Origin: Myxococcales bacterium
GTDB taxonomy: Bacteria > Myxococcota > Myxococcia > Myxococcales > JAJYLH01
DNA: 64,000 bases
Assembly (NCBI GenBank): GCA_021787845.1
Contig: JAJYLH010000014.1
Coordinates: forward strand, 1 to 64,000
Reading direction: 5' to 3'
Every line of letters begins with the position of its first letter. Within the stretch, counting starts at the first letter, position 1. Shown here in pieces: positions 8,896 to 29,283 of this stretch. A model generated the notes under the pieces. That model saw only the letters and a list, made by a program, of their open reading frames with translations. It did not search any database and was not told where the DNA came from. The translations under genes were made by a program, and so were the position numbers.

Positions 8896-9666
8896 ATGAT
8901 GGACCGAACTCGCTCGTGGCGGTCGCCCGTCGTCCTCGCAGCGGCGGTCAGCTTCGCCCTCGCGTGCGCGCCGGCGGGCACCGCCCCACCACCGGCCTGC
9001 ATCGACACCTGCCAGTCCACCGGCGCCCAGTGCGGCGAGGTCTGCGGCGTCTCCTGCGGCACGTGTCCCGGCGCCGGAGTCTGCCGAGAGGGCCGTTGCG
9101 TCTGCACCCCGCAGTGCGCGGGCAAGAGCTGCACCGACTCCGACGGCTGCGGCGGCACCTGCGGTCCCTGCGACGCCGACGTGACTTGCAAGGATTGCAA
9201 GCTGCGCCTCGTGCGGGTGGACCAGACCATCGTCCTCGGCGAAATCTCCCGCGCCACCATCGCGCTCGAATCGACCGCCACCGGACCCGACCCGCGCCTC
9301 GCGGACGTCCGCGTCGCCGTCGACCCGCCGATGGAGCTCCAGACCATCGAACCGGGACCACCGCTTCAGGCGGCCGGCAAGCGCCTCTACCGCTTCACCG
9401 AAACGAACCTGCCCTACTTCCAACTCGCCGACGGGAGCTTCCAGCTTCTCGTCTTCTCGCAGGACAAGGCGCTCTCCATCGACCCTGGTCGCTGGCTCAC
9501 GATGACCTTCGCGCGTCCACCCGGCGCGCACGGACCCGCGTACAAGACGGTCAGGTTCCACCTGGTCCACCGCGCACAGACCCTCGCGCCCATCGCGTCG
9601 GACGATGCGCTCCAAACGGGAGCCTGGGACGCGCCGCTCGCGATTTCCGCGGAGGCCCAGCCATGA
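8896..9666 (+). CDS. Cys-rich lipoprotein with C-terminal cohesin-like domain (operon gene 1)
   Basis: About 256 aa. Signal sequence MMDRTRSWRSPVVLAAAVSF with lipobox LAC. Residues ~30-95 carry a dense cysteine segment (CGEVCGVSCGTCPGAGVC, CTDSDGCGGTCGPC). Residues ~105-256 form a predicted beta-sandwich with cohesin-like spacing: an extracellular V-x-V strand pattern, FQLLVFSQDKALSIDPG and WLTMTFARPP. A second lipoprotein of similar plan is encoded at 23123. The stop codon overlaps the next start (ATGA), so it heads a translationally coupled series. The cohesin assignment is an inference from pattern; profile comparison would be needed. Confidence 0.7.
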   Translation: MMDRTRSWRSPVVLAAAVSFALACAPAGTAPPPACIDTCQSTGAQCGEVCGVSCGTCPGAGVCREGRCVCTPQCAGKSCTDSDGCGGTCGPCDADVTCKDCKLRLVRVDQTIVLGEISRATIALESTATGPDPRLADVRVAVDPPMELQTIEPGPPLQAAGKRLYRFTETNLPYFQLADGSFQLLVFSQDKALSIDPGRWLTMTFARPPGAHGPAYKTVRFHLVHRAQTLAPIASDDALQTGAWDAPLAISAEAQP

Positions 9667-12600: not shown

Positions 12601-15600
12601 TCGCGACGCTGAAGTTCGATCGCATCGAGTCCGGAACCGCTTCGCCAGCCTTCGCGGCGGACCAGCGCAAGCACGATTCGAAGCCCTTCGTCGCGAACCT
12701 CTCCACGGGCGCTGCGCCCACGGCGGTCGACCTCGCGGGGCTGCTCGATGATGTCGAGACAGGCGTCTTCTCCCCGGACGGCTCGCGGCTGCTCCTCTAT
12801 GGCACCAGCAACTCGCGGCCGCAGCTCGTGCGTAGCGCCTCGCTCACGACGCTCGCCGGCGGCACGCGCGTCGGCGCGCAGCCCGAGGACATCGAGGGAC
12901 TGACCTGGGTTCGGGAAGATCGCTACTACCCGTGCAACTGGGTCGGCGCCTATCTGAACCCGTCGAGCAAGCAGTACACGATGGCCCTGCACGGTGGCAT
13001 CGACGAGGTCAAGGTGTGGGCCGGCCTGCGTTCGCCCGAGGCGTTCGTCTCCGACGCGGCCGAGGGCTTCGAGCGACTCACGAAGGACGGCCGCGCGGGC
13101 CAGGTGCCATCGCTCCTTCCTTCCTGCGGAACCTCGAATCTCGACTGCCCGCCGTACTACGCCTGCGTCAACGCTCAATGCGTGATGGTCGCGTGCGACC
13201 CGAACGACGCCTACGCCTGCTCGACCACCGGGGGCCGTTGCTCGATGCGACCGGCCTCGACGAAGCAGGAGAATCCGGGCTACGGCTTCGTGTGCTCGAG
13301 CGATTGCGCGAGCGACCAACAGTGCTTCACGCAGACCTGCCTCAACGGTCCCTGCCGGTTCTGCGACACCGCGACCTCGACCTGCATGGAGTGTCGCAAC
13401 ACGACCGAGGACTACGGCTCGTTCCAGATCAGCACCGTGCAAGGCTGTCCCGATTCCAACGACTACTACTGCGACCACGGCGCCTGCCTCACCGAGTGCT
13501 TCGCGAACCAGGACGGGCACTCCGTGCCGCTGTGCGATCCGACGCTGGAGTACTGCTCGCACGGCCGGTGCGTGCTCCGAGACTGGGACTGGTCCGACTT
13601 CGCGCCCGCGTCGTTCGGCGGGCTGACCGAGACCGTCTACGCCAAGCTGCCGGACGGCATCCGGCGCACGGTGGCGCTGGGCGAGATGGAGCCGGTGACC
13701 ATCAAGGCGTACGGCATCGGCGACCGCGGCATTCCGCCGGAGCTGGTGGTCGAGGGCAAGCTCGAAGGCCAAGACGGAGCCCTGTACGGCGGCGACTGGT
13801 TCCGCATCGGGAAAGTCTTCGTGGACAACCGCACGCAGATCGAGGCGGAGGCAAACCCGTACGTCTTCGAGGTGCCGCATCCGATCACCTCGCTGCGGGC
13901 GCGGCTCATCGACTCGCCCTACCGCAACCTCGACTACGCCTCCGATGGCTTGGGTGCGGCCGACAAGGATTTCTGCCTGAACGATCTGGCGCTCTCGGCG
14001 GCCCGAGGCGGCGGCACGCCCGACCCAGCGCTCTGCCACGAACGGCCGCCCGGAAGCTCGTTCTACCTCGGCTACGACGGGGACATTCCCGACTACGTCG
14101 GCAACCTCGACTGCATCGACCACAGCGACACGGATTGCCAGAACCTCTCCGATCCGCTGCGCGAGTATCTGCCCGGCGGCTACCCCGCGGTGATCATCAC
14201 CGAAGCCGACGTCGGAAGCGCCCTCGCGCCGATTTCCACGAACATGGCTTGCTCGTACGAAGGCACGACCTCGCCCGTCGAGCCGGGCACCGGCCGCCAG
14301 CGCATGCTCTATTACGGGGATGTCACGAAGGAAGACTCGCCCGCGACGACGGCCTTCTGCGCCGGCGGCAACTGCACGCCTTCGGGCCTCATCGACTTCA
14401 CCGCGGCGACCGGCGGCGGCTACGGAATCCTCAACTGCAACTACAACGACGGCAACGGCACGCTCGCGGACGTCGAGTTCAGCGTGCCTCCGTACGTCCA
14501 GGGCTTCACGAACGGCACCATCACCGAGACCGCCAACGCCTGCACGGTGGAGCTGGACCAGAACCGCACCGAGCTCTGCTACGAAGCGATGGGCGGCGAC
14601 ATCTCCATCGACCCGCTGAACGACGACGTCAGTGTGTTCCAGACGCTCGAGTTCTCGATTCCGAAGGGCTTCGCCGACGACCAGGGCTTCACGAGCGCCG
14701 CGCTGCCGAGCTATCCATTGACCGCGACCGTGTCCGGCCTCACCTCGGGCAGCGTCGTGGTCTCCGACGGCGCCGAGCAGGTGACGCTGACCTCCTCGCG
14801 CCCGAGCGCGGCCTTCCCGACGCCGATCGGTCAAGGGAAGCGATTCGCGCTGTCCATCGTCTCGCAGCCCTCGTCTTCGGCGAATGTCTTCTGCGCGGTG
14901 GACGCGACGAGCGGTTCGGGCAACATGCCGTCCGGTGGCACGACCGCGAAAGTCGATTGCGGTCCGGTGGTCTATCTGAGCGGCACCGCCGACGGCATTC
15001 AGGGCGACCGCGCGCTCTTGCACTTGACGACCGATCAGTACGTGGCCGGGAGCATGGTCGCGATGAACGGCCGCTTCGACCTCGCGGTCAGCCGGAACGG
15101 CACGTTCCAGTTCGCGGCTCCGTTGCTCCAGGGCGTCGGCTGGACCGCAACCATCGAGAGCGCGCCGCGGGCTCCGACCGAAACGTGTACGCTCGCGCCG
15201 TCCAGCGGCACGATGCCGGCCGGCGGCGAGAGCGACCTCGTCCTGCACTGCGACATCGTCAAGCCGCGCGTCCTGGGCGGCACGCTCACCGGTCTACCCA
15301 CGGGCGATTCGATCACGCTCTCGAACTCGGCGACCAGCGAATCGCTGCCCTTGAGCGCCGACGGCGCGTTTTCGTTCGCCCAGAAGGTCGCGCCGGGCAA
15401 GGCGTATGCCGTGAGAATCTCCGCCGGCCCTTCGACGACCGGCGTCACGTGCGCCATCAGCAACGCCACCGGGACCATGCCGAACCAGGACGTCGCGAGC
15501 CTCGCGGTGAGCTGCTCGTCGCGGCAGACCTACCTCGTTTCCGCGACGACGACCGGACTCGAAGGAAAGAACCTGACGCTCTCGCTCAACGGTGCGCAGA

Positions 15601-16766
15601 CGCTCGCCGTCGCGGCCGATGGAACGCAGAGCTTCTCCACCGAGCTCCTCGACGCGGCCTCCTACTCGGTCACTGTTGCCACGCAACCCAACCTGCCCGA
15701 TCAGACCTGCCAGGTCATCAGCGGCAGCGGCACCATCCAGGGCGCGAACGCCTCGGTGCAGGTCGTCTGCACCAAGGTGGATACGACGAAGCTGTTCGCC
15801 ATCGGCGGCATCGTGTCCGGTGTGTCCGGCGCCGGGTTGAAGCTCTCGAACAACGGCGCCGACAACGCCACCATCACCCAGAACGGCGCCTTCGCCTTCC
15901 CCACCCCGGCGACGACGGGCAGCCTCTACAACGTGACCGTGGCCCAGCAGCCGGTTTCGCCCGTGCAGTTGTGTACCGTCCAGAACGCCAGCGGAACGGT
16001 GGGGACTGCTGATGTCACGAATATCCAGGTGGCTTGCGTCGATGCCTCGGCGGTGAAGCTGGAGGTCGGCGCGATCAGCTCGGCGGCGATCGACATCCGG
16101 GCGGTACTGATCTCGCAGGACACCGGCAGGCTCGTCGCGCGCACCGCCGATGGGGCCAAGGTGCCCGCGGGCGGCGGCGACATCATCCTCGTCGACCCCA
16201 GCCATGCCGGCGATTCCAGCCCGCCGCCGGAGACGGCGTTCCCGGCAGGCAAGTACCAGCTCTACGCGCTCTTCAACGTGAACCAGACCAAGGACAGCCT
16301 GGGGCATCCCGTCTGGAGCCCCGGCGATCCGGGTGTGTCGATGAGCCTGACCACGACCGCGGGGCAGGAGACGGTGCAGTCGATTCAGGTCTCCGACTTC
16401 GTCGCGACCGTGGACCCGTCCATCAAGATGACCGGCGGCAGCCCTGGCGACACGAGCCCGGCGCATTGCTACTGGAGCTATCCGACCGGCAAGCCGCTGC
16501 CCCTGCCGCCCTGGAGCGACTCGCCGGTGGTGGCGACGGACCAGCTCACCTGTCCGGCGGGCGGAAAGTGCTGGACCGGCGGAGGAGTCACCAACATCAA
16601 CGAGCCCCTGGTTCCCGGCAAGTACGACCTCGCCTGCTGGGTCGACGTGGGCCAGGGCGGAACCGATCCCAACGGCGTCCTCGATTCCCCCGACTACGTG
16701 GGCGTCAAACCCGGGGTAAGTGTCACCGCCGCCCAGGTGTCGGTCAGCCTGGTGGGTGCACCATGA
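9663..16766 (+). CDS. 2367-aa secreted multidomain protein: cohesin-like, LamG, beta-propeller, Ig-like repeats (operon gene 2)
   Basis: Signal peptide 1-21 (LLLLVPAVAHA). In order: a Cys-rich segment (~33-210); a cohesin-like sandwich (~211-350; GPIVELVFQRIGDG); a LamG/concanavalin-like domain (~360-586; WYGFES, GDHLELPV, YSMWFYT, WHNVGFTLD, VNLYFDG); TolB/PD40-type propeller blades (~590-850; SEIWIADLDGSNATQVT, RRPRWAPDGSGLIFES); a D-rich calcium-binding-like stretch (~880-905; DTNHNHVKDANEDLNHDGAW) inside a second sandwich; more Cys-rich sequence (~1150-1310); an unassigned region; and five beta-sandwich repeats of ~85 aa (~1685-2130), each ending with a Cys in (I/V)xC after a SGTM/SGT motif. 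The frame upstream of the ATG at 9663 is spurious: the ATG overlaps the preceding stop and starts the signal peptide. Likely a surface-binding protein. Confidence 0.85.
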   Translation: MSRLACYVVPLLLLVPAVAHARPLSLEEIDTLSGWLDCNDACDAGPADNAQVCHQACGPSQDIWEKDGVPPVTRNDLYLAKLEYADAGRGTEICYRDNGAVVVPAALCPGALCLSTPACSASDCAQPEDSRPTNCPDLVCQAMPTRDAASCADDGDGLPQWIKDYAGSQGMAAGGPCQTDADCDFRHACGLDPNSQLPLCLPRQCNGACTAFHLELESADDQQALVHVFYDYSPIPARVLDLHIDYDRQNLLLQDARPLPNLTAFGKQLAVEHTSTGELRLTVYDPASSSPIPTGPIVELVFQRIGDGAANVSFSTDPTAMTDAIAPLQGDQNRQNDLSDRILWGAPVTIPARSEEQNQRLLLWYGFESADAPQSYSNVPDATALCAEVPTCALETDPQQKAIITARLAALQEGTVSTAGRIDGVVRDGAYLDGTGDHLELPVQVLSPLVASGQSFSYSMWFYTEGDTSADTAGEPQILFSHNGPDERTHFGLVVDFAPDDTASVSFFAGDLAAGYHVARTTMAKGLALRTWHNVGFTLDAATGVVNLYFDGAAAGSTQLTTVPPSIVCPAFANGSDVILHQEGDFMGGQPPEAVWYADRQNGLFSVRRTDPNGLQTMPVVSDPAHNFRDIDVSPALGLIAYSSDVSGSSEIWIADLDGSNATQVTKGFGDQSRGIEARRPRWAPDGSGLIFESNVYSVPDEHNTSRGYQLYFVGFDPVNRVVSTDLDGGVKVAQLDYDALLASQSIGAVQLTRSDGNHQNAFWVHGRGVGGVRGRVLFDSSDSSFEGHQVTWLDIPQNIRDSTVTPVTGLSTSAEEARLLAAFRQARPGATPPEVVEVLYDKSTTRYAASTQYAADAVEGGSTATVSVRFTPSGYDPNCWDTNHNHVKDANEDLNHDGAWDVKDCYPNEIHDLYVAFDPSTYQPRLQPADTAAAAQGTVEAALGKQLVLTEQDGLTGSFVRVEVKTADGDATPLTPGLLATLKFDRIESGTASPAFAADQRKHDSKPFVANLSTGAAPTAVDLAGLLDDVETGVFSPDGSRLLLYGTSNSRPQLVRSASLTTLAGGTRVGAQPEDIEGLTWVREDRYYPCNWVGAYLNPSSKQYTMALHGGIDEVKVWAGLRSPEAFVSDAAEGFERLTKDGRAGQVPSLLPSCGTSNLDCPPYYACVNAQCVMVACDPNDAYACSTTGGRCSMRPASTKQENPGYGFVCSSDCASDQQCFTQTCLNGPCRFCDTATSTCMECRNTTEDYGSFQISTVQGCPDSNDYYCDHGACLTECFANQDGHSVPLCDPTLEYCSHGRCVLRDWDWSDFAPASFGGLTETVYAKLPDGIRRTVALGEMEPVTIKAYGIGDRGIPPELVVEGKLEGQDGALYGGDWFRIGKVFVDNRTQIEAEANPYVFEVPHPITSLRARLIDSPYRNLDYASDGLGAADKDFCLNDLALSAARGGGTPDPALCHERPPGSSFYLGYDGDIPDYVGNLDCIDHSDTDCQNLSDPLREYLPGGYPAVIITEADVGSALAPISTNMACSYEGTTSPVEPGTGRQRMLYYGDVTKEDSPATTAFCAGGNCTPSGLIDFTAATGGGYGILNCNYNDGNGTLADVEFSVPPYVQGFTNGTITETANACTVELDQNRTELCYEAMGGDISIDPLNDDVSVFQTLEFSIPKGFADDQGFTSAALPSYPLTATVSGLTSGSVVVSDGAEQVTLTSSRPSAAFPTPIGQGKRFALSIVSQPSSSANVFCAVDATSGSGNMPSGGTTAKVDCGPVVYLSGTADGIQGDRALLHLTTDQYVAGSMVAMNGRFDLAVSRNGTFQFAAPLLQGVGWTATIESAPRAPTETCTLAPSSGTMPAGGESDLVLHCDIVKPRVLGGTLTGLPTGDSITLSNSATSESLPLSADGAFSFAQKVAPGKAYAVRISAGPSTTGVTCAISNATGTMPNQDVASLAVSCSSRQTYLVSATTTGLEGKNLTLSLNGAQTLAVAADGTQSFSTELLDAASYSVTVATQPNLPDQTCQVISGSGTIQGANASVQVVCTKVDTTKLFAIGGIVSGVSGAGLKLSNNGADNATITQNGAFAFPTPATTGSLYNVTVAQQPVSPVQLCTVQNASGTVGTADVTNIQVACVDASAVKLEVGAISSAAIDIRAVLISQDTGRLVARTADGAKVPAGGGDIILVDPSHAGDSSPPPETAFPAGKYQLYALFNVNQTKDSLGHPVWSPGDPGVSMSLTTTAGQETVQSIQVSDFVATVDPSIKMTGGSPGDTSPAHCYWSYPTGKPLPLPPWSDSPVVATDQLTCPAGGKCWTGGGVTNINEPLVPGKYDLACWVDVGQGGTDPNGVLDSPDYVGVKPGVSVTAAQVSVSLVGAP

Positions 16767-18640
16767 GAACATCTCGCCCGATGCCCAAGACAGTAGGTTG
16801 GACGGTCCCTCCGCGCGCAGCAGGCGCAGAGGGCGGCTGTCCGACGCTCCCTGGCGATGGCTGTGCCACGACGGACAGCCGGTCGCGTGTCCATTCCACG
16901 GCCATGCCCGTATCGTGGGCGACGGGACTGTCCATCCTACTGACCTTGCTGGTGCCAGGTGTCGCCCGTGCCCAATCGGTCGCCTGCAATGGCGTGGGCG
17001 CGTTCCCGTGCGGCAATCAGATCGGCACCGCGCAAATCCAGCCGGTGCCGCAGCTCCTCCAGCTCCAGGCGCGCGTGTCGGAGGCGACGCTGCCCATCGC
17101 CGCCGGGGTCTTCAACAAGCTCATCGTCGAGCTCAAGCACGGCGACGAGTTGCTCTGCTCGGAAGAGTTCCACGACGTGCGCATCACCAACAGCACCATC
17201 AACCTGGAGATCGGCCGCAACATGAACTGCGACCTGGCCGAGACCGTGGCGACGAACGAGGACCTCGCGCTCCAGATTTGCATCGGTGGGACCGACAAGT
17301 GCCTGCGGCCCATCGACCTCGGCACGGTGCCCTACGCGCTCAAGAGCACCTACGCGCTCCTCGCGCAACAGGCGCACGAGGCCGACCTCGCCGGTCAGGC
17401 CTACTACGCGCACCGCGCCGCAGCCGACCGGAACCTGGAGCTGAGCAAGGAGCTGGGCACCGGCTATTTCGACTTCTCGACGCCCGATTCCGCGCCCGAG
17501 CTCTACCCGAACCCGGCGGACTTCGCGCCGTTCGCTCACGGCGGCTTCATCACTTGGACGCCCGAGCATGAGACGGCGCCGACCCTTCACATCGCCGCTC
17601 GGGACGCGGTTCGTGACACGCCGGTGCCGCTGGACAAGCTGCTCCTCGAAGCGAACAGCACCGAGACCCTGGGGCGGCTGGTCGTCAAGGCCAATGGGTT
17701 GCAGGTGACCGGAGCGTCATCGATCGATGGCGCGACCACGGTCATCGGGATGCTCAGCGTGAACGCGCCCGCCAACGGCGATCCTTCCGGCCTGGATGTG
17801 CAGGGGCCCGGCAGGTTCACCGGCACCTTGGACGTGGGCGGGCCGATGACCGTCGACAGCGGCGGCCTCCACGTGACTGGGGACTCCGACATCGATGGAA
17901 GCTTGTCGGTCACCGGAGCGCTCACTTCGGGCCCGCTGACCGTCCAGACGGGTGGCGCGAACATCACCGGTGACTTGACGCTGACCGGCGACGCGGACAT
18001 CGGAGGAAACCTGACCGCCTCCACCGCGAGCTTCACCGGCCTCGACGTCGGCGCGACCGGCATGACCGTCAACGGTTCGCTCACCCTGAACGGCCCGGCC
18101 TCCTTCTCCAGCGCCGTCCCGATGACCAGTGTGCCCGGCGACTTCAACGTCCCGGGAACGCTCACCGCGGGCGCCTTCCAGATGAGCACGCCGGTGACGC
18201 TCCCCAGCGTGGCCGCGACCGGGACCATCGGCTCCGCGGGGAAGAATCCGAGCAGCGGCATGCCGTCCGGTTGGGCCGGCGTGCACACGCAGGACGTCCT
18301 CGCGGAGGGCAACGTCGGCGCCGGCCCGAGCGGTGGTCCAGCAAAGGCGTACATCGACAGTAGCAGCATTCACGCACAGAGCGCCGTCATCAATGGCGAC
18401 CTGCAGGTCGCGACGATCAACGGGGTTGTTCCGGGCCCGGGCGGATCGCGCTTTTACTGGACGAGTGGCGACTGCGCTGCCGGCGACGTGCCCATCTCGT
18501 ACAAGCCCGATTGTGAAGGCACGCTGGTCGGCGGGGCGTCCCTTTCAGGCAACCACTTTGATGTCTATTGTTCATCCCTCGATGGGTCGTCGAGCTATTG
18601 GGAGGCTACCACTACGGGTTGCCTCTCGGGGCTGTGGTAA
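16763..18640 (+). CDS. Fibre-like secreted protein, paralogue 1 of 3 (operon gene 3)
   Basis: 625 aa from the ATG overlapping the previous stop. The signal core GLSILLTLLVPGVARA ends at ~residue 70; residues 10-60 are encoded by a dispersed repeat (16791-16942). An internal ATG at 16904 would give a 23-aa signal but has no Shine-Dalgarno. The mature protein begins QSVACNG. It has a conserved head (~71-200), the LGTVPYALKSTYALLAQQA motif seen ahead of fibre stems, and a long stem of VTG/L-x-V-x-G repeats (~300-520) likely to be a beta-helix or trimeric fibre. A short unique tip (~565-625) ends GCLSGLW. Paralogues follow at 18738 and 20834. Probably exported and surface exposed. Confidence 0.8.
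   Translation: MRTSRPMPKTVGWTVPPRAAGAEGGCPTLPGDGCATTDSRSRVHSTAMPVSWATGLSILLTLLVPGVARAQSVACNGVGAFPCGNQIGTAQIQPVPQLLQLQARVSEATLPIAAGVFNKLIVELKHGDELLCSEEFHDVRITNSTINLEIGRNMNCDLAETVATNEDLALQICIGGTDKCLRPIDLGTVPYALKSTYALLAQQAHEADLAGQAYYAHRAAADRNLELSKELGTGYFDFSTPDSAPELYPNPADFAPFAHGGFITWTPEHETAPTLHIAARDAVRDTPVPLDKLLLEANSTETLGRLVVKANGLQVTGASSIDGATTVIGMLSVNAPANGDPSGLDVQGPGRFTGTLDVGGPMTVDSGGLHVTGDSDIDGSLSVTGALTSGPLTVQTGGANITGDLTLTGDADIGGNLTASTASFTGLDVGATGMTVNGSLTLNGPASFSSAVPMTSVPGDFNVPGTLTAGAFQMSTPVTLPSVAATGTIGSAGKNPSSGMPSGWAGVHTQDVLAEGNVGAGPSGGPAKAYIDSSSIHAQSAVINGDLQVATINGVVPGPGGSRFYWTSGDCAAGDVPISYKPDCEGTLVGGASLSGNHFDVYCSSLDGSSSYWEATTTGCLSGLW
16791..16942. repeat. Dispersed inverted-repeat element A, copy 1, inside a signal-peptide n-region
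   Basis: A 152-bp element with near-matching inverted termini: cagtaggttggacggtcc on the left and ggactgtccatcctactg on the right. Inside are ggctgtcc...ggacagccggtcgcg palindromes. It keeps the frame and encodes residues 10-60, including the GLSILL part of the hydrophobic core. Copies 2 and 3 are at 18766-18942 and 35338-35483. Confidence 0.8.
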
Positions 18641-18737: not shown

Positions 18738-20705
18738 ATGAGAACATCTGGGTTCTCCCCGCAGACAGCAGGTCGGACAGGCCGGCCTTGCGCCGCACGC
18801 GCGACGGCCAGCTATCCGACTGCCGGAGCGATCGGCGCGGAAGACCTCTCCTGCGATCGCTCTGGAAGGACGGACAGCCGGTCGCGTGTCCATTTCTTGG
18901 CCGTGCCGGGCCTTTGGGCGACCGGACTGTCCATCCTACTGGCCTTGCTCGCGCCACGGGCTGGCCGCGCGCAGTCGGTCTCATGCAACGGCACCGGCGA
19001 CTTCCCGTGCGGCTATCAGGTGTCGAACCTGGGAATCCAGCCGGCGCCGAACATCCTCAAGTTCCAAGCGCGCATTTCTCAGGCGAAGCTCCCCACGGGC
19101 AACGGTGTCTTCAAGGAGATCATCGTCGCGCTCAAGCGCGGCAACGAGACGCTCTGCACGGAAGAGCTCCACGACGTGAGCGTCTCCGACAGCACCCTCA
19201 ACCTGGAAATCGGCCGCAACATGGACTGCGAGCTGGACCAGGTGGTGGCCGCGAACCAGGACCTCGCGCTCCAGATTTGCATCGGCGGCGCCGACGACTG
19301 CCTGCGGCCGATTCCGCTCGGAACGACGCCTGATGCGCTCAAGAGCTCCTTTGCGGTCGAGGCTGTGCAGGCGCACTCGGCGGACGTCGCCGGCCTGGCG
19401 AACTACGCACAGCGGGCGACCGCGGACCGCGACATGACAGTACGCAAGGAGCTGGGGATCGGCTACTTCGACTTCAGCACCCCGGGCTCCGCGCCGAGCC
19501 TCTACCCGAACGCCTCGGATTTCGCGCCGTACGCGCAGGGAGGTTTTCTGACCTGGATGCCGATGCAGGAGACGGCGCCGACGCTGAGCATCGCCGCGCG
19601 CGACCCGGCTCATGACACGCCGATTGCGTTGAGCCGGCTGTTCCTCGAATCGAACGACACCGAGACCCTCGGACGCCTCGTCGTCAAGTCCAAGGGTGTC
19701 CTGGTCACCGGCGCATCATCGATCGATGGGGCGACCACCATCGTCGGGATGCTCACCGTGAATCCGCCGAGCGGCAGCAATCCTTCCCTGGCGGTGCAGG
19801 GGCCCGGCACCTTCGGCGGCACGTTGACGGTCGGCGGACCAGCGACGGTCGTCGGCGGTGGCCTCCACGTGACGGGGGATTCCGATGAAGCTGGAAACCT
19901 GTCGCTGACCGGAGCGCTCACCTCCGGGGGCCCGCTCACCGTGACGAGCGGAGGCGCGAACGTTACAGGAAACATGACGCTGATCGGCAACCTCGATGCA
20001 ACGGGGACCATCAACGCGCCGTCCGCGAGTGTCGACGGGCTTTCGGTCGGCGCGACGGGCGCGACCATCGCTGGCCCGCTGACGGTGAACGGGCAGCTCG
20101 TCATGTCCGGCGCCGCGTCGATGAGCGGCGTCTCCGGTGACTTCAACGTACCGGGCACGCTCACCGCAGGCGCGCTCAAGGTGACCGGAGGCACAACCGT
20201 GCCAGGGATCACGGCGACAGGGAACATCGGCGCCGGGGGGAAAGATCCGAACAGCGGCTATCCGTCCGGGTGGACCGGGGGCCTGCACACCAAAGATCTC
20301 TACGCCGAGGGCTCCATCGGCGTCGGGCCGACGGGTGGCGCGTACATGGACAACAGCGGCACGGTCCACGCGCAGAGCGGCAACATCTCCGGGAACCTCC
20401 AGGTCAGCACCGTCAACGGCAAGGTGCCCGGCTCCGGCAGCGGCCAGCAGGTGACGTTCTACTGGTCGACCAACTGTAGCACCTATATGGATCAGTATTG
20501 GGGGCCATCGAGCGTGTGCAGCTGCGGAAGCGACACGGCTGTCACTTTCAGCTTCGCCTCCGTGTACCCGCTCCACATCGTGTGGCAGCAGACGGCTAGC
20601 AGTTTCAATCTTCAGTGCACGGATCCCACCAACAGCGACTGGACCAAGAACGGTCACACCTGCGGCGCCCCCGCGATCGGGTGCATGCGCGGGCTGTTGC
20701 CATGA
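18738..20705 (+). CDS. Fibre-like secreted protein, paralogue 2 of 3 (operon gene 4)
   Basis: 655 aa. Same plan as its neighbours: head (QSVSCNGTGDFPCGYQ), LGTTPDALKSSFAVEAVQA, a long VTG/GG-rich stem with SIDGATTIVGMLTV, and a distinct Cys-containing tip (~575-655; CSTYMDQYWGPSSVCSC, ending IGCMRGLLP). Residues 10-68 come from the second copy of element A, so the hydrophobic core lies unusually late (~61-78). GTG and TTG codons just before the core are possible alternative starts. It starts 97 bp after the previous gene and shares the leader CCATGAGAACATCT with it, indicating tandem duplication. Confidence 0.8.
   Translation: MRTSGFSPQTAGRTGRPCAARATASYPTAGAIGAEDLSCDRSGRTDSRSRVHFLAVPGLWATGLSILLALLAPRAGRAQSVSCNGTGDFPCGYQVSNLGIQPAPNILKFQARISQAKLPTGNGVFKEIIVALKRGNETLCTEELHDVSVSDSTLNLEIGRNMDCELDQVVAANQDLALQICIGGADDCLRPIPLGTTPDALKSSFAVEAVQAHSADVAGLANYAQRATADRDMTVRKELGIGYFDFSTPGSAPSLYPNASDFAPYAQGGFLTWMPMQETAPTLSIAARDPAHDTPIALSRLFLESNDTETLGRLVVKSKGVLVTGASSIDGATTIVGMLTVNPPSGSNPSLAVQGPGTFGGTLTVGGPATVVGGGLHVTGDSDEAGNLSLTGALTSGGPLTVTSGGANVTGNMTLIGNLDATGTINAPSASVDGLSVGATGATIAGPLTVNGQLVMSGAASMSGVSGDFNVPGTLTAGALKVTGGTTVPGITATGNIGAGGKDPNSGYPSGWTGGLHTKDLYAEGSIGVGPTGGAYMDNSGTVHAQSGNISGNLQVSTVNGKVPGSGSGQQVTFYWSTNCSTYMDQYWGPSSVCSCGSDTAVTFSFASVYPLHIVWQQTASSFNLQCTDPTNSDWTKNGHTCGAPAIGCMRGLLP
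18766..18942. repeat. Dispersed inverted-repeat element A, copy 2, inside a signal-peptide n-region
   Basis: A 177-bp copy. The right end (ggactgtccatcctactg) is identical to copy 1 and the left end is diverged (cagcaggtcggacagg). It stays open in the reading frame of the host gene and provides residues 10-68. Confidence 0.75.
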
Positions 20706-20833: not shown

Positions 20834-23035
20834 ATGAGAATCACGCTGGCGTTGCTTTCTCTTTGCGCGGTCCTTCTCGCGGCCGGCGCCGCCCGCGCGC
20901 AGTCGGTCTTCTGCGACGGCGCGGGCGACTTCCCGTGCGGATACCGGATCTCGAATGTGCAGATCCAGCCGGCACCGCTCCTGTTCAACTTCCAGGTGCG
21001 CCTGTCCCAGGCCAAGCTTCCCTTGGGCGACACCATCTTGAGCAGGGTCGTCGTCAAGATCAAGCGCGGCGCCGAGACGCTCTGCACGGAGGATTTCCAT
21101 AACGTGCGGGTCTCGTACAGCACCATCAACCTGGTGATCGGACACAACATCGATTGCGACCTGAACCATGTGGTGGCCACGAACGAGGATCTCGCGTTCC
21201 AGGCTTGCGTCGGTGGGACCGGCAACTGTCTGAGGCCGGTCGCGTTTGGAACGGTGCCCTATTCGCTCAAGAGCTCGTACGCGGCCCTCGCGCAACAGGC
21301 ACAGGTAGTCGACATCGCCGACGAGGCGAACTACGCGGAGCGCTTCAGCGCCGACCGCGACATGCTCCTGCGCAGGGAGATCGAGACGGGTTACTTCGAC
21401 ATGAGCACGCCCGCCTCAGCGCCCAGCCTCTACGCGAATCCGACCGACTTCGCGCCGTTCGCCAACGGAGGCTTTCTGACTTGGACGCCGTTGCACGAGA
21501 GCGCGCCCACGCTGCACATTTCCGCCCGCGACGCGGCCCGAGACACTCCGGTCCCGCTGGACAGATTGCTCCTCGAATCGAACGACACCGAAACCCTGGG
21601 CAACCTGGTCGTGAAATCCAACGGGATGCAGGTCACCGGAGCGTCGTCGATCAACAGTGCGACCACCATCCTTGGAATGCTCACCGTGAATTCGCGCAGC
21701 GATGGCGGCCTCTCGGGCCTGAAGGTGCAGGGGACCGGCACCATCAGCGGCACGTTGGATGTCGGCGGGGCGGCGACGATCGCCAGTGGCGGCGTTCACG
21801 CCGTTGGCGATTCCGATGAGACCGGGAGCTTGTCGGTCACCGGGGCGCTCACCTCTGGAGGCCCCCTCACCGTCTCGACCAGCGGCGGGCACATCACAGG
21901 AGACCTCACGCTCAGCGGCGACCTGAACGCCTCGGGATCTGTCAGCGCGCCAGCGGCGAGCTTCGATGACCTTACTGTTGGCTCGACGGGTGCGACCATC
22001 AACGGTCCGATCACGGTGACCGGCCAGGTCTCCATCCCCGGCGGCGTCTCGATGAGCGGCGTGACCGGCGACTTCAACGTTCCGGGCACGCTCACGGCCG
22101 GTGCCCTCCAGGTGAGCGGGGCGACGACCTTGGCCAGCGCGTCCTTGAGCGGCAACCTCGGCAGCGCGGGGAAGGACCCGAACACTGGCTATCCGACCGG
22201 ATGGACCGGCGGCCTGCACACGCAGGATGTCTACGCGGAGGGCTCCATCGGCGTCGGGCCGAGCGGCGGGCCGGCGAGAGCGTACATCGACAGCGGTGGC
22301 ACGATCCAGGCGCAGAAGGCCGTCATCGCCAACAACCTGCAGGTCGGGACGATCAACGGACACGCGCCTGGGAGCGGAGGCAGTGGGATGAGCGTGCAAT
22401 GGCAGAGCTGCCAACAGGGCTCCAGCCAGTGCTATTGCAACAACGGCGGCGAGGCTATCGCCTTCGCGTGGAGTGGGCCGGTTTACAGCGGGTCAGACCG
22501 GGGCGGTGACATCAACACCGATTATCAAATCCCGAGCAACGGCTCGGCGTGGCAGTACCAATGTGGGGCTTACTTTCCCCAGGGCACGTGGGGGTACTGG
22601 AACGGCGCCGCATGCTCGGGCCCGGAGATTGCCTGCCTCGCTGGAGCAAATGTGCTGCCGACATGCACCTTGCCGAGCGGCACCTATTCTGGGGCATGCA
22701 CCAACTGCTCCGTCTCGGGCTCGGGCTGTTCGCTGCTGTCGTGCCAATGCGCGGACACATACGGCTCGTACCACGGGACCTCGCTCGGGCTGCCGTGTTA
22801 CGCGGACATCGCGGACTGCAACGGCAACCTGACCTGTGGGTCTTGTGCGCCCCCGCCGACCTGCAGCGCGCCGAGCGGCACCTATTCTGCGACCTGCACC
22901 GGCTGCTCCGTCTCGGGCTGCACGCTGTCGTGTTCCTGCAAGGACGTAAACGGCGTCTACCACTCGGCCTCGCTCGCGCTGCCGTGTAACTCCGCCTCGA
23001 ACTGCAACGGCAGCCTGGTCTGTGGGTTCTGTTGA
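20834..23035 (+). CDS. Fibre-like secreted protein, paralogue 3 of 3, with two cyanovirin-N-like lectin domains (operon gene 5)
   Basis: 733 aa with an ordinary 22-aa signal (MRITLALLSLCAVLLAAGAA, then RA). This copy lacks the n-region repeat and shows the ancestral start. Head and stem align with the two upstream paralogues (LGDTILSRVVVKIKRG, FGTVPYSLKSSYAALAQQA). The tip region (~515-605) ends PEIACLAG like the other tips, but is extended by two tandem ~60-aa domains (~610-672 and 673-733). Each has the CVNH pattern: PSGTYSATC, (N/G)CSVSG, tL-x-C-x-C, Y-H-x-x-S-L-x-LPC, then DCNGNL or NCNGSL and C. CVNH domains bind high-mannose glycans, so this fibre probably recognises carbohydrate. Confidence 0.82.
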   Translation: MRITLALLSLCAVLLAAGAARAQSVFCDGAGDFPCGYRISNVQIQPAPLLFNFQVRLSQAKLPLGDTILSRVVVKIKRGAETLCTEDFHNVRVSYSTINLVIGHNIDCDLNHVVATNEDLAFQACVGGTGNCLRPVAFGTVPYSLKSSYAALAQQAQVVDIADEANYAERFSADRDMLLRREIETGYFDMSTPASAPSLYANPTDFAPFANGGFLTWTPLHESAPTLHISARDAARDTPVPLDRLLLESNDTETLGNLVVKSNGMQVTGASSINSATTILGMLTVNSRSDGGLSGLKVQGTGTISGTLDVGGAATIASGGVHAVGDSDETGSLSVTGALTSGGPLTVSTSGGHITGDLTLSGDLNASGSVSAPAASFDDLTVGSTGATINGPITVTGQVSIPGGVSMSGVTGDFNVPGTLTAGALQVSGATTLASASLSGNLGSAGKDPNTGYPTGWTGGLHTQDVYAEGSIGVGPSGGPARAYIDSGGTIQAQKAVIANNLQVGTINGHAPGSGGSGMSVQWQSCQQGSSQCYCNNGGEAIAFAWSGPVYSGSDRGGDINTDYQIPSNGSAWQYQCGAYFPQGTWGYWNGAACSGPEIACLAGANVLPTCTLPSGTYSGACTNCSVSGSGCSLLSCQCADTYGSYHGTSLGLPCYADIADCNGNLTCGSCAPPPTCSAPSGTYSATCTGCSVSGCTLSCSCKDVNGVYHSASLALPCNSASNCNGSLVCGFC

Positions 23036-23122: not shown

Positions 23123-23743
23123 ATGCTCACCTCACGCCATCCCGCTATTCTCGCCTCCGCCGCGCTCGCGCTGGCGCTCGCTGCGTGCTCGAAGCCCGCG
23201 CCCGCTCATCCTGAGGGGCTCCCCTCCGCTCATCCTGGGCGCTCCACCCCCGCTCATCCTGAGCGCTCCACCCCCGCTCATCCTGAGCGCAGTCGAAGGA
23301 CGCCGGCGAACGCCATCGAGCATCTGCCGCCGGTGCTGGGCCTTCAACCGCAACCCACGGTGGTCGATGGCGAGGTGGCCGTCACGATCAGCTACGCCCG
23401 CCCGGCCGACGAGCCCGCGCCGCGGCTGGCCGAATTCCATTTCCAGGTCGGCTCCGGGCTCACCTTCGTGCGCGCCGAACCGCTCGACGCCGTGGTCAAG
23501 GCGGGCAAGCAGCTCGTCGCGCAGGTGCATCCTGGCAACGTCTTGCGGCTTCTCATCTTCTCCACCGCGAACCTGAACACGCTGGACAGCGGACCTCTCG
23601 CGACGCTCGTCTTTCAGCGCACCGGCACCGGACCGACGACCCTCGACCTGCTCGACCAGCGGCCCATCTTCGCGCCGCCCGAGGCCGACCTCGCCGTCGG
23701 GCCGCTCGGTGAAATCTCCGTCCACGCGGAGGCTAAGCCATGA
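23123..23743 (+). CDS. Cohesin-like lipoprotein with AHPERSTP repeat (operon gene 6)
   Basis: 206 aa. The ATG lies after TTGAGGACTAAGCCG. Lipobox LAAC at ~22. Immediately after the lipidated Cys come four 8-aa repeats (AHPEGLPS, AHPGRSTP, AHPERSTP, AHPERSRR) encoded by 24-bp copies of a dispersed repeat. Residues ~75-206 form a cohesin-like sandwich: VDGEVAVTISYARP, EFHFQVGSGLTFVRAEPLD, NVLRLLIFS, LDSGPLATLVFQRTG. Many type I cohesins show this SG-x-L-x-T-L-x-F pattern. The stop overlaps the next start (ATGA), coupling it to the protein carrying a dockerin-like motif. Assignment is by pattern only. Confidence 0.72.
   Translation: MLTSRHPAILASAALALALAACSKPAPAHPEGLPSAHPGRSTPAHPERSTPAHPERSRRTPANAIEHLPPVLGLQPQPTVVDGEVAVTISYARPADEPAPRLAEFHFQVGSGLTFVRAEPLDAVVKAGKQLVAQVHPGNVLRLLIFSTANLNTLDSGPLATLVFQRTGTGPTTLDLLDQRPIFAPPEADLAVGPLGEISVHAEAKP
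23205..23302. repeat. Four 24-bp in-frame repeats (TCATCCTGAG family)
   Basis: Period 24 bp with core gctcatcctgagcgctccac. It is the same dispersed sequence as in the gap at 3027-3105. As eight codons it keeps frame whatever the copy number, so repeat-number change would alter linker length without frameshift. Confidence 0.85.
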
Positions 23744-26700
23744 AACGGGACTGTCACTTGTCTCCCGGGCATGTTTCAGTGCCTATTTCCGCTCATCCTG
23801 AGGGGAGGCCGACGGTTCTTGGTCGGCCGGACTCGAAGGATGAGCGTTGGCGCAAACCGCCCGGCCTTGGAGTCCGCTCGCAAAGGGCGCTCGCTCCCCT
23901 CAGGACGAGCGGTTTGCTGAGCCTCGATGAAGTCCACAGCCCCTCGCTGGCGTGTCGAGCGTTCAGCTACGGTATCTTCGCCTTGGTGCTCCTCTTCGCT
24001 AGCGTCGCCCGCGCTGGGGACGGCACGACGACGAGCGTTCCCAACGAGTGTACGTCCGCCGGGGGCACCGGCATGGGCTGCGGGACCGACGCCCAGTGCG
24101 CCAACAACGCCTACGCGACGAGGTGTGTGCAGCTCGTCGCCGGTGACGCCACGAGCCGCCACTGCGAAATCCCTTGCGACTCCGACACCGGGACCGCCGT
24201 CGAGTCGGAGTGCGCCGTCGGCGAGACCTGCGTCACCGCGGGCGGCGACGGCTCTCACTACTGCCAGGCATCCCGGTTCCGCGTCGATTTGAACCTCGTC
24301 GACCTTGCGATCACCGACTTCCTGACCGGCAACCAGCCGCTCTTGGGCAGTGACGATCAGTGCTCGCTGGAGGCGAACCTCGACAAGCTCCTCGATCAGA
24401 ACGGCGACGGCAAGTTCGACATCTTCGACATGGATCTGATCATCCAGGCGCTCCTCGACGAGCCGAAGTGCGACCCGACGACCGGCACCTGTCCGTCGGA
24501 CGACTTGGTCTTCTGCAACGCCGACTCGGACTGCGGCTCCGGGCTCCACTGCGACACGAGCCGCAACGTCTGCGAGCGCGAGTGCGGCCTCGTCGCGAGC
24601 CGCGAGATGGGTTTCGCCGACATCGATCGCCAGTGCGCCGAGCCGTTGACGACCTGCGACTACAGCAAGGGCACCTGCGTCCCGGTCGACCTGTCGCAAA
24701 CGAGCTGCCAGGTGGACCAGGAGTGTCCCGCCGGCGCCTACTGCTTCCTCGGCCAGTGCGCGCCGCTGTGTTACCGCAGCATCGACTGTCCGGGCTCCGA
24801 CTGGTACTGCACCGACAACAACCGCTGCCGCACGCTGCCCTCGCCCAACGCCCAGCCCGGCTTCGTCTTCATTCCGAAGAACTACGCGCTCCTCTTCGGG
24901 GAGCCGGCCGTCTCGCTCAACGATGTCCAGACCGACTCGTCGGACCCGATCCTCATCATGGACCTCATCACCAAGCGGCAGGTGGCGACGAACCCCTCCG
25001 TCAGCTTCGGCTATCGGGTCGAGGTCACCTACAATCTCAAGGACGATCCGAAGTGTCGCCAGGACCCGTCGCAGTGGTCCGACGCCGACCGGGCCGACTG
25101 CATCCTCGGCGATGACAAGCACTTCGTGATGCCGGTCGCTCCGTTCGGGACCGTGTTCGCCGTCGGAAATCCGAAGATGCCGGTCAGCCTCGACCCGGTC
25201 GCGGCGAGCCACCTGACTCCGGGCAAGTACTCTGCGAACTTCCGCGTCATCTTCGACAACGGCAGCTCCGACTCGTTCCAGGTGCTCTACGAAAAGACGA
25301 CGCCCTCCGGCGAGTACACCGGCACCTACTCGGTGGCGCTGGGCGGCGCGGACAACAACCTCGCGCCGAACCTGCCGCTGAACCTGGCGATGAAGCTGCA
25401 CATCGAGGACACCCAGGAGTCCTGGACCCAGCTCCTCGAGGATCAAGGCATCCAGGCGACTTCGCAGGACTACACGAACCTCTCCAGCGGCTACGTGGTC
25501 AAGGGTCTCGTCCACGGCGACCAGTCCCTGGCCTTCGCCAACACCACCGATCCGACCGGCAAGAACGAGATTCCCCTGACTGGGCTCTACTCGCCCGAGC
25601 TGGGATGGATGCGCCTGTTGTGGATCGTGGACCTGCCAGCGGGCTTCTGCGTCGACGAGAACGGCGTCTGTCCCTCGACCGGCGCCACGACCAACCTGGT
25701 CGCGGACAACGTCTTCGGCCGTCGCATCCGGCGCGTCGTGCAGCTTTTCGGAACCTATGACGACGCGGCCAAGCGCTTCTACGGCATCTACCGCGAGGCC
25801 ATCAGCGGCCTCGTCCCGCAGGCGACCGACCTGACGCTGAATGGCAGCTTCCTCTTGACTCAGGCTGTCCACGACGAGTCGGATTTCGATGTCGGTCCGG
25901 TGCTCCCGGCCGATGCGCCGGCGACGGTTTCGTATCCCGCCGTCGACGTGGTCACGTCCGAGCTCGATCAAGAGATCGAGACGGCGTGCGGCGCGGTGGT
26001 GGCCGAAGGTGCCGCAGCGGATGCGAGCGCGACCGCCGTGACGAACGCCAAGGACGCGCAGACCGCGCAAGCGAAGTTGGCCTCTCAAACCGCGTTGACG
26101 AGCTACCTGGCGAGCCTGGCTTCCGGCGGCTCGGCGGTCTTTCCGAAGCTGGTTTCGTTCGAGCAGCAGATCAGCGACGCGCTGGCCGCGCTGGGCACCA
26201 ACGGCACCTCCGGGAACGGCGTCGGCCCGTCGGCGGCGTCCAACGACACGCTTTCCATCTACGACTTCCTCTCGGGTCAAATCACGATTTGCGGCACGGA
26301 CCAGAACCAGGGACCGGAGTCGACGCCGACGCCGGCCTGCATCGACGAGAACGTCGCCGAGTGCGGGCTCGCGCTCTACCGCCGGGCCATCGTGGGCGGC
26401 TGGGTGCCGCCGTTCGCCACCAGCGACACCGGCAACCACCAGCTCTTCTGCTCGCAGACGCTTCCGACCGCGGACTGCGAGAACACGCAGAATCAGGCCC
26501 TCGAGGCGCTCCACGAGTACACCCGCTTCGACCAGCAGCTCGCCCAGGCGCGCAAGTTCCAAGCGGACCACGACCTCTCCGATGCGTTCTACGCGCTCTA
26601 CCGCAACCAGGTGAACCCGTTCGGCAAGGGCGAGGCGCTGTCCTTCAAGCAGGAGAAGCTCGAGTCGTCGGTGCAGTTCTACAACGAGCTCTTGGAGAAC

Positions 26701-29283
26701 ATGGTGGGTCCCGCGCCGACCGATGTCCTCTTCGGATGGCCGGTGCAACGCTTCCAGGGCGACGGCTCCGAATGGGTACAGGAGATGGAGTCGATTCTGA
26801 CCGACCGGCTGAACGCCTTGCAGCAGCTCGTCGACCTGCACCGGCGGGTCCTGGAGACCTCGGGGCTGTCGGATCGCCCGCTGGCGGAGCAGCTCGCGCA
26901 GGAAGAGTATCTCGTCAGCGTCTACCTCCTCGCGCTCCAGCGGCAGTGGGCGGGGCCGAACTTCACCTACGACGGCATCGGCGACACCCTGTTGCAGAGG
27001 ATGCAGAGCATCCTCTTGCAGCTCGACGACGCCAAGAACCCGCTCGGCATCAGCCCGAATCTCGTCTTCTTCGAGAACTCGAACCTGAACCTCTCCAACT
27101 GGCAGAACTACCGGCAGGAGCTGGTCGGCGACGACGGCCAGAGCGGGCTCCTCGGTGAGGCCAACACCGAAATCAGCCAGGCCGTGGACAATCTCAAGGC
27201 GTCGCTCAGCGACATGGACACCTTCGAGGCGAACCTCTCGAACGCCACGGGCGCTTACCAGAACACCATCCAGTCGTTGTGTGGAGTGCCGACGACGCGG
27301 GCAAACGAGTGCGCCGCGCTCGAGGCTCAGATCGCGAAGGACGACATCGCCGGCACGATGGACGAGCGGAAATGCACGGTGGAAGGCGGCCAGTGGGACA
27401 GCGCGAGCTCGACGTGCTCGGGCGTCCCGCAGTGCGATTCCGCGTCCGCCCTCAACCTCGGCGACCCCGACGTCTGCAAGCAGGTGACGGATTACTTCAC
27501 GACCAACGGCGCCAACACCTCGGGCAACCTGAGCAATCTGTCGTGCCCCTACGACGGCAACTACGAGTCGATCAAGGTCGACGGCGCCGACGTTCCCTGC
27601 GTCGGCGGCACGATGGGAGGGCTGCTCGGCCAGAAGGAAGACCTGGTCATGCAAGTCAAGAACCTCGACGCCCAGGTGGGGAACATCCTGGCGAACGTGC
27701 GCAACATGACCGCCTACATCAAGGCCAAGAACGACGCGACCAACAGCTTCAATACCACCATCACCGGGCTCCAGGCCGCGTCGGCGGCGCTCGAGCTCGC
27801 GGTTTCCATCACCGATCGCGTGTTCGACAGCATCGACGCGTTCTCGAAGGATCCGGACTGCATGATCATCGTGGGCTTCTCGGACGGAACCGACTGTCCA
27901 GGGCACATTGTCGCGCAATCGATCGACGGCACCGAGAAGGTTGTGCAGAGCGCCATCGACGGGGCGCTGGAGACCGCCGACAAGGGTCTGACGACGGCCA
28001 TCGATCCGCTCAGCCGCGCGAACGACCAGACGTTGGACCAGCTTTCCGACAAGAACACTCTGGAAGACATGTTGGCTCAGCTCCAGGGCATCGGCACCCA
28101 GTACCAAGCGGCGCTGGAGGACCTCTTGAGCGTCTACTCGCAGATGGAGCAGGTCCAGCTCCAGGCTCAGGCGGCGTCGGACGGTCAGGCCCAGAGCATC
28201 GACTACGTCATCAACCATCTCATCGGGCGCGAGAACGGCAGCGTCCTGCTCGGCAACTACCTGGTGTCGAAGTCCGCGGACACCTTCCGCCAGGCGCTCG
28301 ACACCACCTACCGCATGGTGATGGCTTTCGCCCACCAGTACAACCTCTCCGACGCCCAGCTCGAGGCGCTCGAAAGTCAGGTCTACCAAGCCATCACCGT
28401 CGAGGACCTGCAGGCCGTCGTAACGCAGCTCGACCAGACGGCGCGCGACTACTGCGGCCAGGAGGCCATCGACTGCGACGCCTTCAACAACCTCTCGGTC
28501 CTGCGGCTGTCCTTGCGCGACGCGCTCTTCCCGAACCTCCGCGACGTGGTCGACCCGACGACCGGTCAGGTGGTCACCAAGGGACAGCAGTTCTTCAACC
28601 TCATCACGGAGCCGCCGTTCCTGAAGCGGCGCATCGTGGGAACGCACACCGTCGACCAAATCGAGCTCCCCTTCGTCATCTGGCTCCCGGAGACCGGCGA
28701 CCCCGGCAACCAGAGCTGGATGGTCAACCCGCTCGAGTGCAACCACACCCTCGACTGGGAGCCCAACGCCCAGGGCGACGGCCCCGCCACCGCGGGCGAC
28801 GTGGCGGTGAACTTCGTCGGAGATAACCTCGACAAGACCACGGAAACGATTCACTACCAGCTCGAGCGCGGCGACGTCGACTGGCTGCGCGCCTGCCACC
28901 CGGTGGCGACGACGCAGGAGCTGGGGACCGCTCCCGTGCTCCAGTATCCGATCGACACCTACCTCATCGGCTACGCGCCGCAAAGCCAATTCGGGCAGGA
29001 GTCGCAGCCGCCGACCTTCTACAGCCTTTCGAGCAACCTCGCCGGGTGCCTCGATTCGGCCGAGAGCAACGGCGCCCCCGAGGACAATTGCTGGCAGCTC
29101 TTCGCCCGCGACCGCAGCCTCGCGGCGCCGGACTGGAAGGTCATCATTCCGCTTTGGGTCGACGGGGCGGACGCCGGCAACGCCTGGATCGCCGGCGCGG
29201 GGTTGCCCGACGCCAAGAAGCCGGTCGTCTCCGACATCGTGCTCTACCTGCGGTACCGGACCCGGCCGATTTCGGAGCAGTGA
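23740..29283 (+). CDS. 1847-aa secreted protein with dockerin-like motif and long helical region (operon gene 7)
   Basis: Starts at the ATG overlapping the previous stop. The signal core is ~77-92 (FALVLLFASVARA); residues 18-62 are repeat-encoded, and a TTG at ~59 is the only alternative start past the repeat. The mature N-terminus (~95-370) is rich in Cys pairs (CNADSDCGSGLHC, CQVDQECPAGAYC). Residues ~219-243 hold DQNGDGKFDIFDMDLIIQAL, matching the calcium-loop-plus-helix pattern of a dockerin (D-x-N-x-D-G-x-x-D-x-x-D). A beta-rich region follows (~380-720). Residues ~730-1650 are Ala/Gln/Leu-rich and mostly helical, with probable coiled coils (LDAQVGNILANVRNMTAYIK). The final ~150 residues look globular. 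Possible partner of the cohesin-like lipoproteins. Confidence 0.78.
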   Translation: MKRDCHLSPGHVSVPISAHPEGRPTVLGRPDSKDERWRKPPGLGVRSQRALAPLRTSGLLSLDEVHSPSLACRAFSYGIFALVLLFASVARAGDGTTTSVPNECTSAGGTGMGCGTDAQCANNAYATRCVQLVAGDATSRHCEIPCDSDTGTAVESECAVGETCVTAGGDGSHYCQASRFRVDLNLVDLAITDFLTGNQPLLGSDDQCSLEANLDKLLDQNGDGKFDIFDMDLIIQALLDEPKCDPTTGTCPSDDLVFCNADSDCGSGLHCDTSRNVCERECGLVASREMGFADIDRQCAEPLTTCDYSKGTCVPVDLSQTSCQVDQECPAGAYCFLGQCAPLCYRSIDCPGSDWYCTDNNRCRTLPSPNAQPGFVFIPKNYALLFGEPAVSLNDVQTDSSDPILIMDLITKRQVATNPSVSFGYRVEVTYNLKDDPKCRQDPSQWSDADRADCILGDDKHFVMPVAPFGTVFAVGNPKMPVSLDPVAASHLTPGKYSANFRVIFDNGSSDSFQVLYEKTTPSGEYTGTYSVALGGADNNLAPNLPLNLAMKLHIEDTQESWTQLLEDQGIQATSQDYTNLSSGYVVKGLVHGDQSLAFANTTDPTGKNEIPLTGLYSPELGWMRLLWIVDLPAGFCVDENGVCPSTGATTNLVADNVFGRRIRRVVQLFGTYDDAAKRFYGIYREAISGLVPQATDLTLNGSFLLTQAVHDESDFDVGPVLPADAPATVSYPAVDVVTSELDQEIETACGAVVAEGAAADASATAVTNAKDAQTAQAKLASQTALTSYLASLASGGSAVFPKLVSFEQQISDALAALGTNGTSGNGVGPSAASNDTLSIYDFLSGQITICGTDQNQGPESTPTPACIDENVAECGLALYRRAIVGGWVPPFATSDTGNHQLFCSQTLPTADCENTQNQALEALHEYTRFDQQLAQARKFQADHDLSDAFYALYRNQVNPFGKGEALSFKQEKLESSVQFYNELLENMVGPAPTDVLFGWPVQRFQGDGSEWVQEMESILTDRLNALQQLVDLHRRVLETSGLSDRPLAEQLAQEEYLVSVYLLALQRQWAGPNFTYDGIGDTLLQRMQSILLQLDDAKNPLGISPNLVFFENSNLNLSNWQNYRQELVGDDGQSGLLGEANTEISQAVDNLKASLSDMDTFEANLSNATGAYQNTIQSLCGVPTTRANECAALEAQIAKDDIAGTMDERKCTVEGGQWDSASSTCSGVPQCDSASALNLGDPDVCKQVTDYFTTNGANTSGNLSNLSCPYDGNYESIKVDGADVPCVGGTMGGLLGQKEDLVMQVKNLDAQVGNILANVRNMTAYIKAKNDATNSFNTTITGLQAASAALELAVSITDRVFDSIDAFSKDPDCMIIVGFSDGTDCPGHIVAQSIDGTEKVVQSAIDGALETADKGLTTAIDPLSRANDQTLDQLSDKNTLEDMLAQLQGIGTQYQAALEDLLSVYSQMEQVQLQAQAASDGQAQSIDYVINHLIGRENGSVLLGNYLVSKSADTFRQALDTTYRMVMAFAHQYNLSDAQLEALESQVYQAITVEDLQAVVTQLDQTARDYCGQEAIDCDAFNNLSVLRLSLRDALFPNLRDVVDPTTGQVVTKGQQFFNLITEPPFLKRRIVGTHTVDQIELPFVIWLPETGDPGNQSWMVNPLECNHTLDWEPNAQGDGPATAGDVAVNFVGDNLDKTTETIHYQLERGDVDWLRACHPVATTQELGTAPVLQYPIDTYLIGYAPQSQFGQESQPPTFYSLSSNLAGCLDSAESNGAPEDNCWQLFARDRSLAAPDWKVIIPLWVDGADAGNAWIAGAGLPDAKKPVVSDIVLYLRYRTRPISEQ
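23793..23925. repeat. TCATCCTGAG-family inverted repeat inside a signal-peptide n-region
   Basis: Arms such as gctcatcctgagggg...ctcgaaggatgagcg and ccgctcgcaaagg...cccctcaggacgagcgg form overlapping hairpins. The block is in frame, encodes residues ~18-62 of the gene starting at 23740, and contains no stop. Confidence 0.7.

Follow-up and report, generated by a model that had tools for sequence, protein, structure and literature searches.

A predicted cysteine-rich CVNH domain at the C-terminus of the third of three tandem fibre paralogues in a Myxococcales bacterium

Introduction

CVNH domains are best known from cyanobacteria and fungi. In cyanovirin-N itself the canonical cysteines pair as Cys8-Cys22 and Cys58-Cys73. 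The protein is made of two sequence repeats, residues 1-50 and 51-101, whose limits differ from those of its two glycan-binding domains (PMC4926178). Fungal CVNH-LysM lectins (PDB 2l9y) and other multidomain CVNH proteins carry the domain as a module in a larger protein. A second group of relevance is formed by the trimeric fibres that end in Peptidase_S74, phage tailspikes and their bacterial relatives, in which a conserved base and a repetitive shaft bear an exchangeable tip. In phage fibres, Peptidase_S74 is an intramolecular trimerisation chaperone.

Here we describe a locus that combines features of both groups. The stretch analysed (the window) covers the initial 64 kb of a contig of 90.9 kb in a 6.24-Mb Myxococcales genome; other sampled members of the same order include 12-Mb genomes. 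Three fibre genes lie in tandem on the forward strand between 16904 and 23035, and the third ends in a CVNH domain. As in the multidomain lectins, CVNH is here a module, but its partner is a bacterial secreted fibre and the domain is C-terminal, without an inserted domain. The base, shaft and tip resemble the Peptidase_S74 fibres, whereas the window fibres have signal peptides and non-phage neighbours, and Peptidase_S74 is absent from all three. This kind of fibre and this lectin family are already known; a second instance of their fusion did not turn up in the searches described below.

Architecture of the third fibre and its paralogues

The third fibre gene (20834-23035, + strand; likely ATG start at 20834, stop at 23035) encodes 733 residues, which the open reading frame and the paralogue alignment divide into a signal peptide, an N-terminal base domain, a shaft, a cysteine-containing tip and the CVNH domain. 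The signal peptide, MRITLALLSLCAVLLAAGAARA (20834-20899, + strand), was read from the sequence, with cleavage predicted as likely before QSV. The base domain (residues 23-250; 20900-21583, + strand) contains six cysteines. It is followed by a shaft of 258 residues (residues 251-508; 21584-22357, + strand) with a repetitive G-x-hydrophobic pattern and no cysteine, and by a tip domain (residues 509-607; 22358-22654, + strand) with six. The remaining tail of 125 residues (609-733; 22658-23032, + strand) holds twenty. The shaft has a periodicity of about 6, 12, 25 and 37 residues, which is consistent with a β-helix or β-prism fibre, and PDB profile searches relate it weakly (E 0.004-0.03) to receptor-binding proteins of phage baseplates and to short tail fibre proteins.

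Paralogues 1 (16904-18640) and 2 (18903-20705), both on the + strand, lack CVNH. All three copies share the base (61-64% identity), shaft (63-65%) and tip, the last at only 29-33% identity; by this comparison the tip is the fast-diverging part of the fibre and the base and shaft are conserved. The CVNH domain of copy 3 starts directly after its tip, at the point where paralogues 1 and 2 end, and a profile search of the genome finds CVNH a single time, on copy 3 only. An earlier interpretation, made from the DNA letters without database searches (the sequence-only reading), had remarked that the other two paralogues stop where the third continues, and the alignment bears this out. Its further proposal, that lectin domains were added to an existing fibre, holds for a CVNH-type addition to one of three tandem paralogues, but the addition is one domain rather than several.

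A single CVNH domain with two internal repeats

The same reading had described the tail as two tandem CVNH-like domains of ~60 residues, quoting motifs that are indeed present (PSGTYSATC, CSVSG, L-x-C-x-C, SL-x-LPC, CNGNL/CNGSL). Two tandem units are found, repeat 1 spanning residues 609-671 (22658-22846, + strand) and repeat 2 residues 675-733 (22856-23032, + strand), as delimited by the PF08881 profile and by comparison of the repeats; they share 61% amino-acid and 77% nucleotide identity, and we propose that they were recently duplicated. However, each repeat alone fills only positions 1-49 of the PF08881 model, half of it, and both together fill positions 1-101/102. Since cyanovirin-N itself consists of two sequence repeats, the tail is one CVNH domain with two internal repeats, and two separate CVNH domains are ruled out.

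The PF08881 scores are modest. A Pfam search, the check suggested for the original claim, gave 27.2 bits with the C-terminal 130 residues and 25.3 bits in the genome search, both above the cut-off of 24.5 bits, and 24.3 bits with the full-length 733-residue protein, 0.2 bits below it. The NCBIfam model NF052356, named 'mannose-binding lectin', matched with an E-value of 4.5e-9 at 36.9 bits, short of its curated cut-off of 80 bits. Searching the PDB with the tail returned cyanovirin-N chains, with a best E-value of 3e-7. A profile that included four CVNH domains from other genomes recovered all known CVNH structures, as such a profile should.

Modest scores and a very high cysteine content could also mean that the tail is a small cysteine-rich repeat of another kind, with a likeness to CVNH that is due to chance in composition and motif. 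We weighed the match against shuffled sequences, using a hidden Markov model built only on the four CVNH domains that G042, G072 and G073, from the same order, contribute, with the tail itself left out. The tail scored 15.1 bits; a model this small (four domains, three genomes) yields low bit scores, and it is the contrast with the shuffles that counts. The best full shuffle reached 10.1 bits (~19,600 shuffles) and the best with cysteines held in place 11.0 bits (~19,700), so that none of the ~39,300 shuffles, half with fixed cysteines, attained the score of the real tail. Thus, neither composition nor cysteine spacing alone accounts for the match.

Alignment to cyanovirin-N places its canonical cysteines 8, 22, 58 and 73 at C14, C31, C80 and C94 of the tail (numbering of the 125 residues), and the NG-L hairpin motif also aligns. 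The likeness to cyanovirin-N thus covers the whole model, two repeats of ~50-60 residues, the four canonical cysteines and the hairpin. The tail differs in its sixteen further cysteines, which have no counterpart in cyanovirin-N, in a proline-containing linker between the repeats, in repeats that are more alike (61%) than those of cyanovirin-N, and in its position at the end of a fibre.

Structure prediction, also named as a check for the original claim, gave a divided answer. With CVNH rows in the alignment, AlphaFold2 returned a low-confidence model (mean pLDDT 51) with five strands per repeat, ordered as in CVNH. Its 22 top-ranking hits in the PDB were without exception cyanovirins (E from 9e-5, TM of about 0.4), although the CVNH rows bias this model. 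A single-sequence model made without relatives (pLDDT 44) had no significant structural match in the PDB. The predictions are weak, and support a CVNH fold without settling it. The single-sequence result fits a chance resemblance, which we nevertheless regard as quite unlikely, given a match over the complete two-repeat model, the score beyond all shuffles and the aligned cysteines and hairpin. On these comparisons the tail is very probably homologous to CVNH.

Predicted sugar sites and function of the tail

In site B of cyanovirin-N, only Asn42, Thr57 and probably Glu41 contact the sugar by their side chains, the remaining contacts going to backbone carbonyls; N42A abolishes binding and T57A leaves binding in the low-millimolar range (PMC8091458). 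When the tail is aligned to cyanovirin-N, site B keeps Thr57 but has Asp for Asn42 and Ala for Glu41, and site A keeps Asn93 with Ala in place of Thr7. Asp44 and Asp95 are both replaced by Asn. Each predicted pocket therefore retains one of two key sugar-contacting side chains. The loss of one direct-contact side chain per pocket makes mannose specificity doubtful, and we regard it as unlikely; the binding of mannose glycans suggested by the sequence-only reading does not find support in these residues. Binding of glycans of some kind is probable.

These substitutions are also what would be seen if the tail had kept the CVNH fold and lost sugar binding, its many disulfides making it a robust structural cap, or a lock for the trimer, where the fibre ends. 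The twenty cysteines of the tail and the cysteine-containing tips of the neighbouring fibres would suit such a cap, as would the change of Asn42, given the effect of N42A in cyanovirin-N (PMC8091458). Yet paralogues 1 and 2 do without the CVNH tail, one key side chain survives in each pocket, and cyanovirin-N makes much of its contact with sugar through backbone carbonyls (PMC8091458). We consider the cap improbable.

The account that we favour, and hold to be probable, is that the third fibre is a secreted, probably trimeric surface fibre ending in one complete glycan-binding CVNH domain with disulfide-rich repeats. A carbohydrate-recognising surface fibre is the best reading of the locus, close to the carbohydrate-sensing adhesin imagined earlier. 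We propose that the fibre would be exported through the Sec pathway, that the conserved base may attach either to the cell surface or to proteins encoded by the conserved genes nearby, and that the shaft would keep the tip away from the cell. The CVNH domains, three per trimer with up to six sugar sites, could then bind glycans on prey, kin or matrix. More speculatively, the tail may belong to a CVNH subclass that is armoured with disulfides and serves as an exchangeable tip, its closely similar repeats pairing across trimer chains, in the manner of domain-swapped cyanovirin-N, into a multivalent head for a bacterial surface glycan other than high-mannose, for example on prey or kin; we see this as a long shot.

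If the domain does bind glycans, it would hint at the targets of these fibres, and the three paralogues, divergent at their tips, would offer a natural series, if a small one, in which to test target choice. A CVNH variant so rich in cysteine may also serve as a stable lectin scaffold.

Distribution of CVNH in the phylum

A profile survey of 195 genomes of the phylum found CVNH in four, all from this order. The cyanobacteria, fungi and ferns listed as sources in the sequence-only reading are thus incomplete, since the three other genomes of this bacterial order carry the domain as well. There (G042, G072 and G073; loci L002-L005) it occurs in small secreted proteins or lipoproteins. These share the domain and secretion with the window protein, but they are small, have the usual cysteines and in no case form part of a fibre. 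L002 and L003 each have one CVNH domain on a predicted lipoprotein, and L004/L005, from G042, contain a secreted open frame of 289 residues with two. In that 12.5-Mb genome the frame holds two complete CVNH domains, hence four repeats, which is the look of a true tandem.

Relatives of the cysteine-rich tail were found neither in genome contigs (two pattern-based scans) nor in viral contigs (one such scan), plasmids or phages. The alignment behind the patterns included a copy of the tail with its repeats swapped and one invented consensus row, whose sole use was to make the patterns looser; neither counts as evidence. No other fusion of a fibre to CVNH was found among the 195 genomes of the phylum or in the contig, plasmid and phage scans.

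Fibre homologues and the conserved gene cluster

Homologues of the fibre occur in two other genomes of the phylum, G155 (two copies) and G171. Both genomes have the base domain; the tips of these homologues are unlike one another, and CVNH is absent from all. In the G171 homologue (L023, 6120-9455) the end is formed by a Peptidase_S74 chaperone domain and a stretch resembling a coiled coil. Since Peptidase_S74 is typical of trimeric fibres, the window fibres are probably trimeric as well, by analogy with this distant relative.

The Peptidase_S74 homologue and the weak likeness of the shaft to phage fibre proteins raise the question of a phage origin, with the fibre as part of a phage or of a particle derived from one and CVNH as its receptor-binding tip. 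Each of the three fibres, however, begins with a Sec-type signal peptide, read from the sequence, and the surrounding genes encode predicted lipoproteins and large secreted proteins, with Laminin_G_3 and vWA domains among them. There was no PHROG match, and neither 50,697 phage records nor the pattern-based scan of viral contigs gave a hit. A phage origin is very unlikely, and we rejected it on the signal peptides, the neighbours and the empty phage searches.

The fibres of the window belong to a conserved cluster (9663-35297). The product of gene A (9663-16766, + strand) is large and secreted, carries a Laminin_G_3 domain and is 38-42% identical to the protein encoded upstream of the G155 fibre. 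Downstream of the fibres, gene C (23123-23743, + strand) encodes a small predicted lipoprotein (LAAC) that is conserved beside the fibre in G155. It is followed by gene D (23740-29283, + strand), for a secreted protein of ~1850 residues that has a cysteine-rich part and a single EF-hand-like loop (NGDGKFDIFDMD) and shares 42-44% identity with its G155 counterparts, and by gene E (29283-35297, + strand), which domain searches and cluster comparison identify as a vWA-domain predicted lipoprotein with many CxDGxxNGxETDVDCGG repeats. The order A-fibre-C-D-E is kept at both G155 loci (L021 1-16001 and L022 1-16001), with a Laminin_G_3 protein, a fibre, a lipoprotein-like protein, a cysteine-rich protein of ~1770 residues and a vWA protein; the window departs from them in having three fibres. 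G171 (L023) has part of the cluster, with counterparts of the large protein, of the fibre and of the cysteine-rich protein. To our knowledge, no system of this composition has been described. Conservation of the cluster around a varying fibre points to a surface assembly of which the fibre is the varied part. The locus thus presents a bacterial surface fibre, duplicated in tandem within a conserved, uncharacterised Myxococcota-type cluster, one copy of which has gained a lectin module.

Several minor features of the neighbouring genes were also recorded. The loop of gene D (NGDGKFDIFDMDLII) is EF-hand/dockerin-like, as recorded for the window (24382-24480) and the L022 protein (9933-15263); its PDB match to EF-hands is weak (E 0.013). 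Genes A and C looked cohesin-like by eye, but a cohesin/dockerin pairing was discarded, as neither Pfam nor the PDB supported cohesin. The repeats of gene E take the longer form CxDGxxNGxETDVDCGGxCxxC, and the protein has a Fibrinogen_C-like end. Within gene C, at 23200-23300, a short near-repeat (GCTCATCCTGAGCGCTCCACCCC) gives a repeated AHPERSTP stretch, and a similar string lies near 23740-23850.
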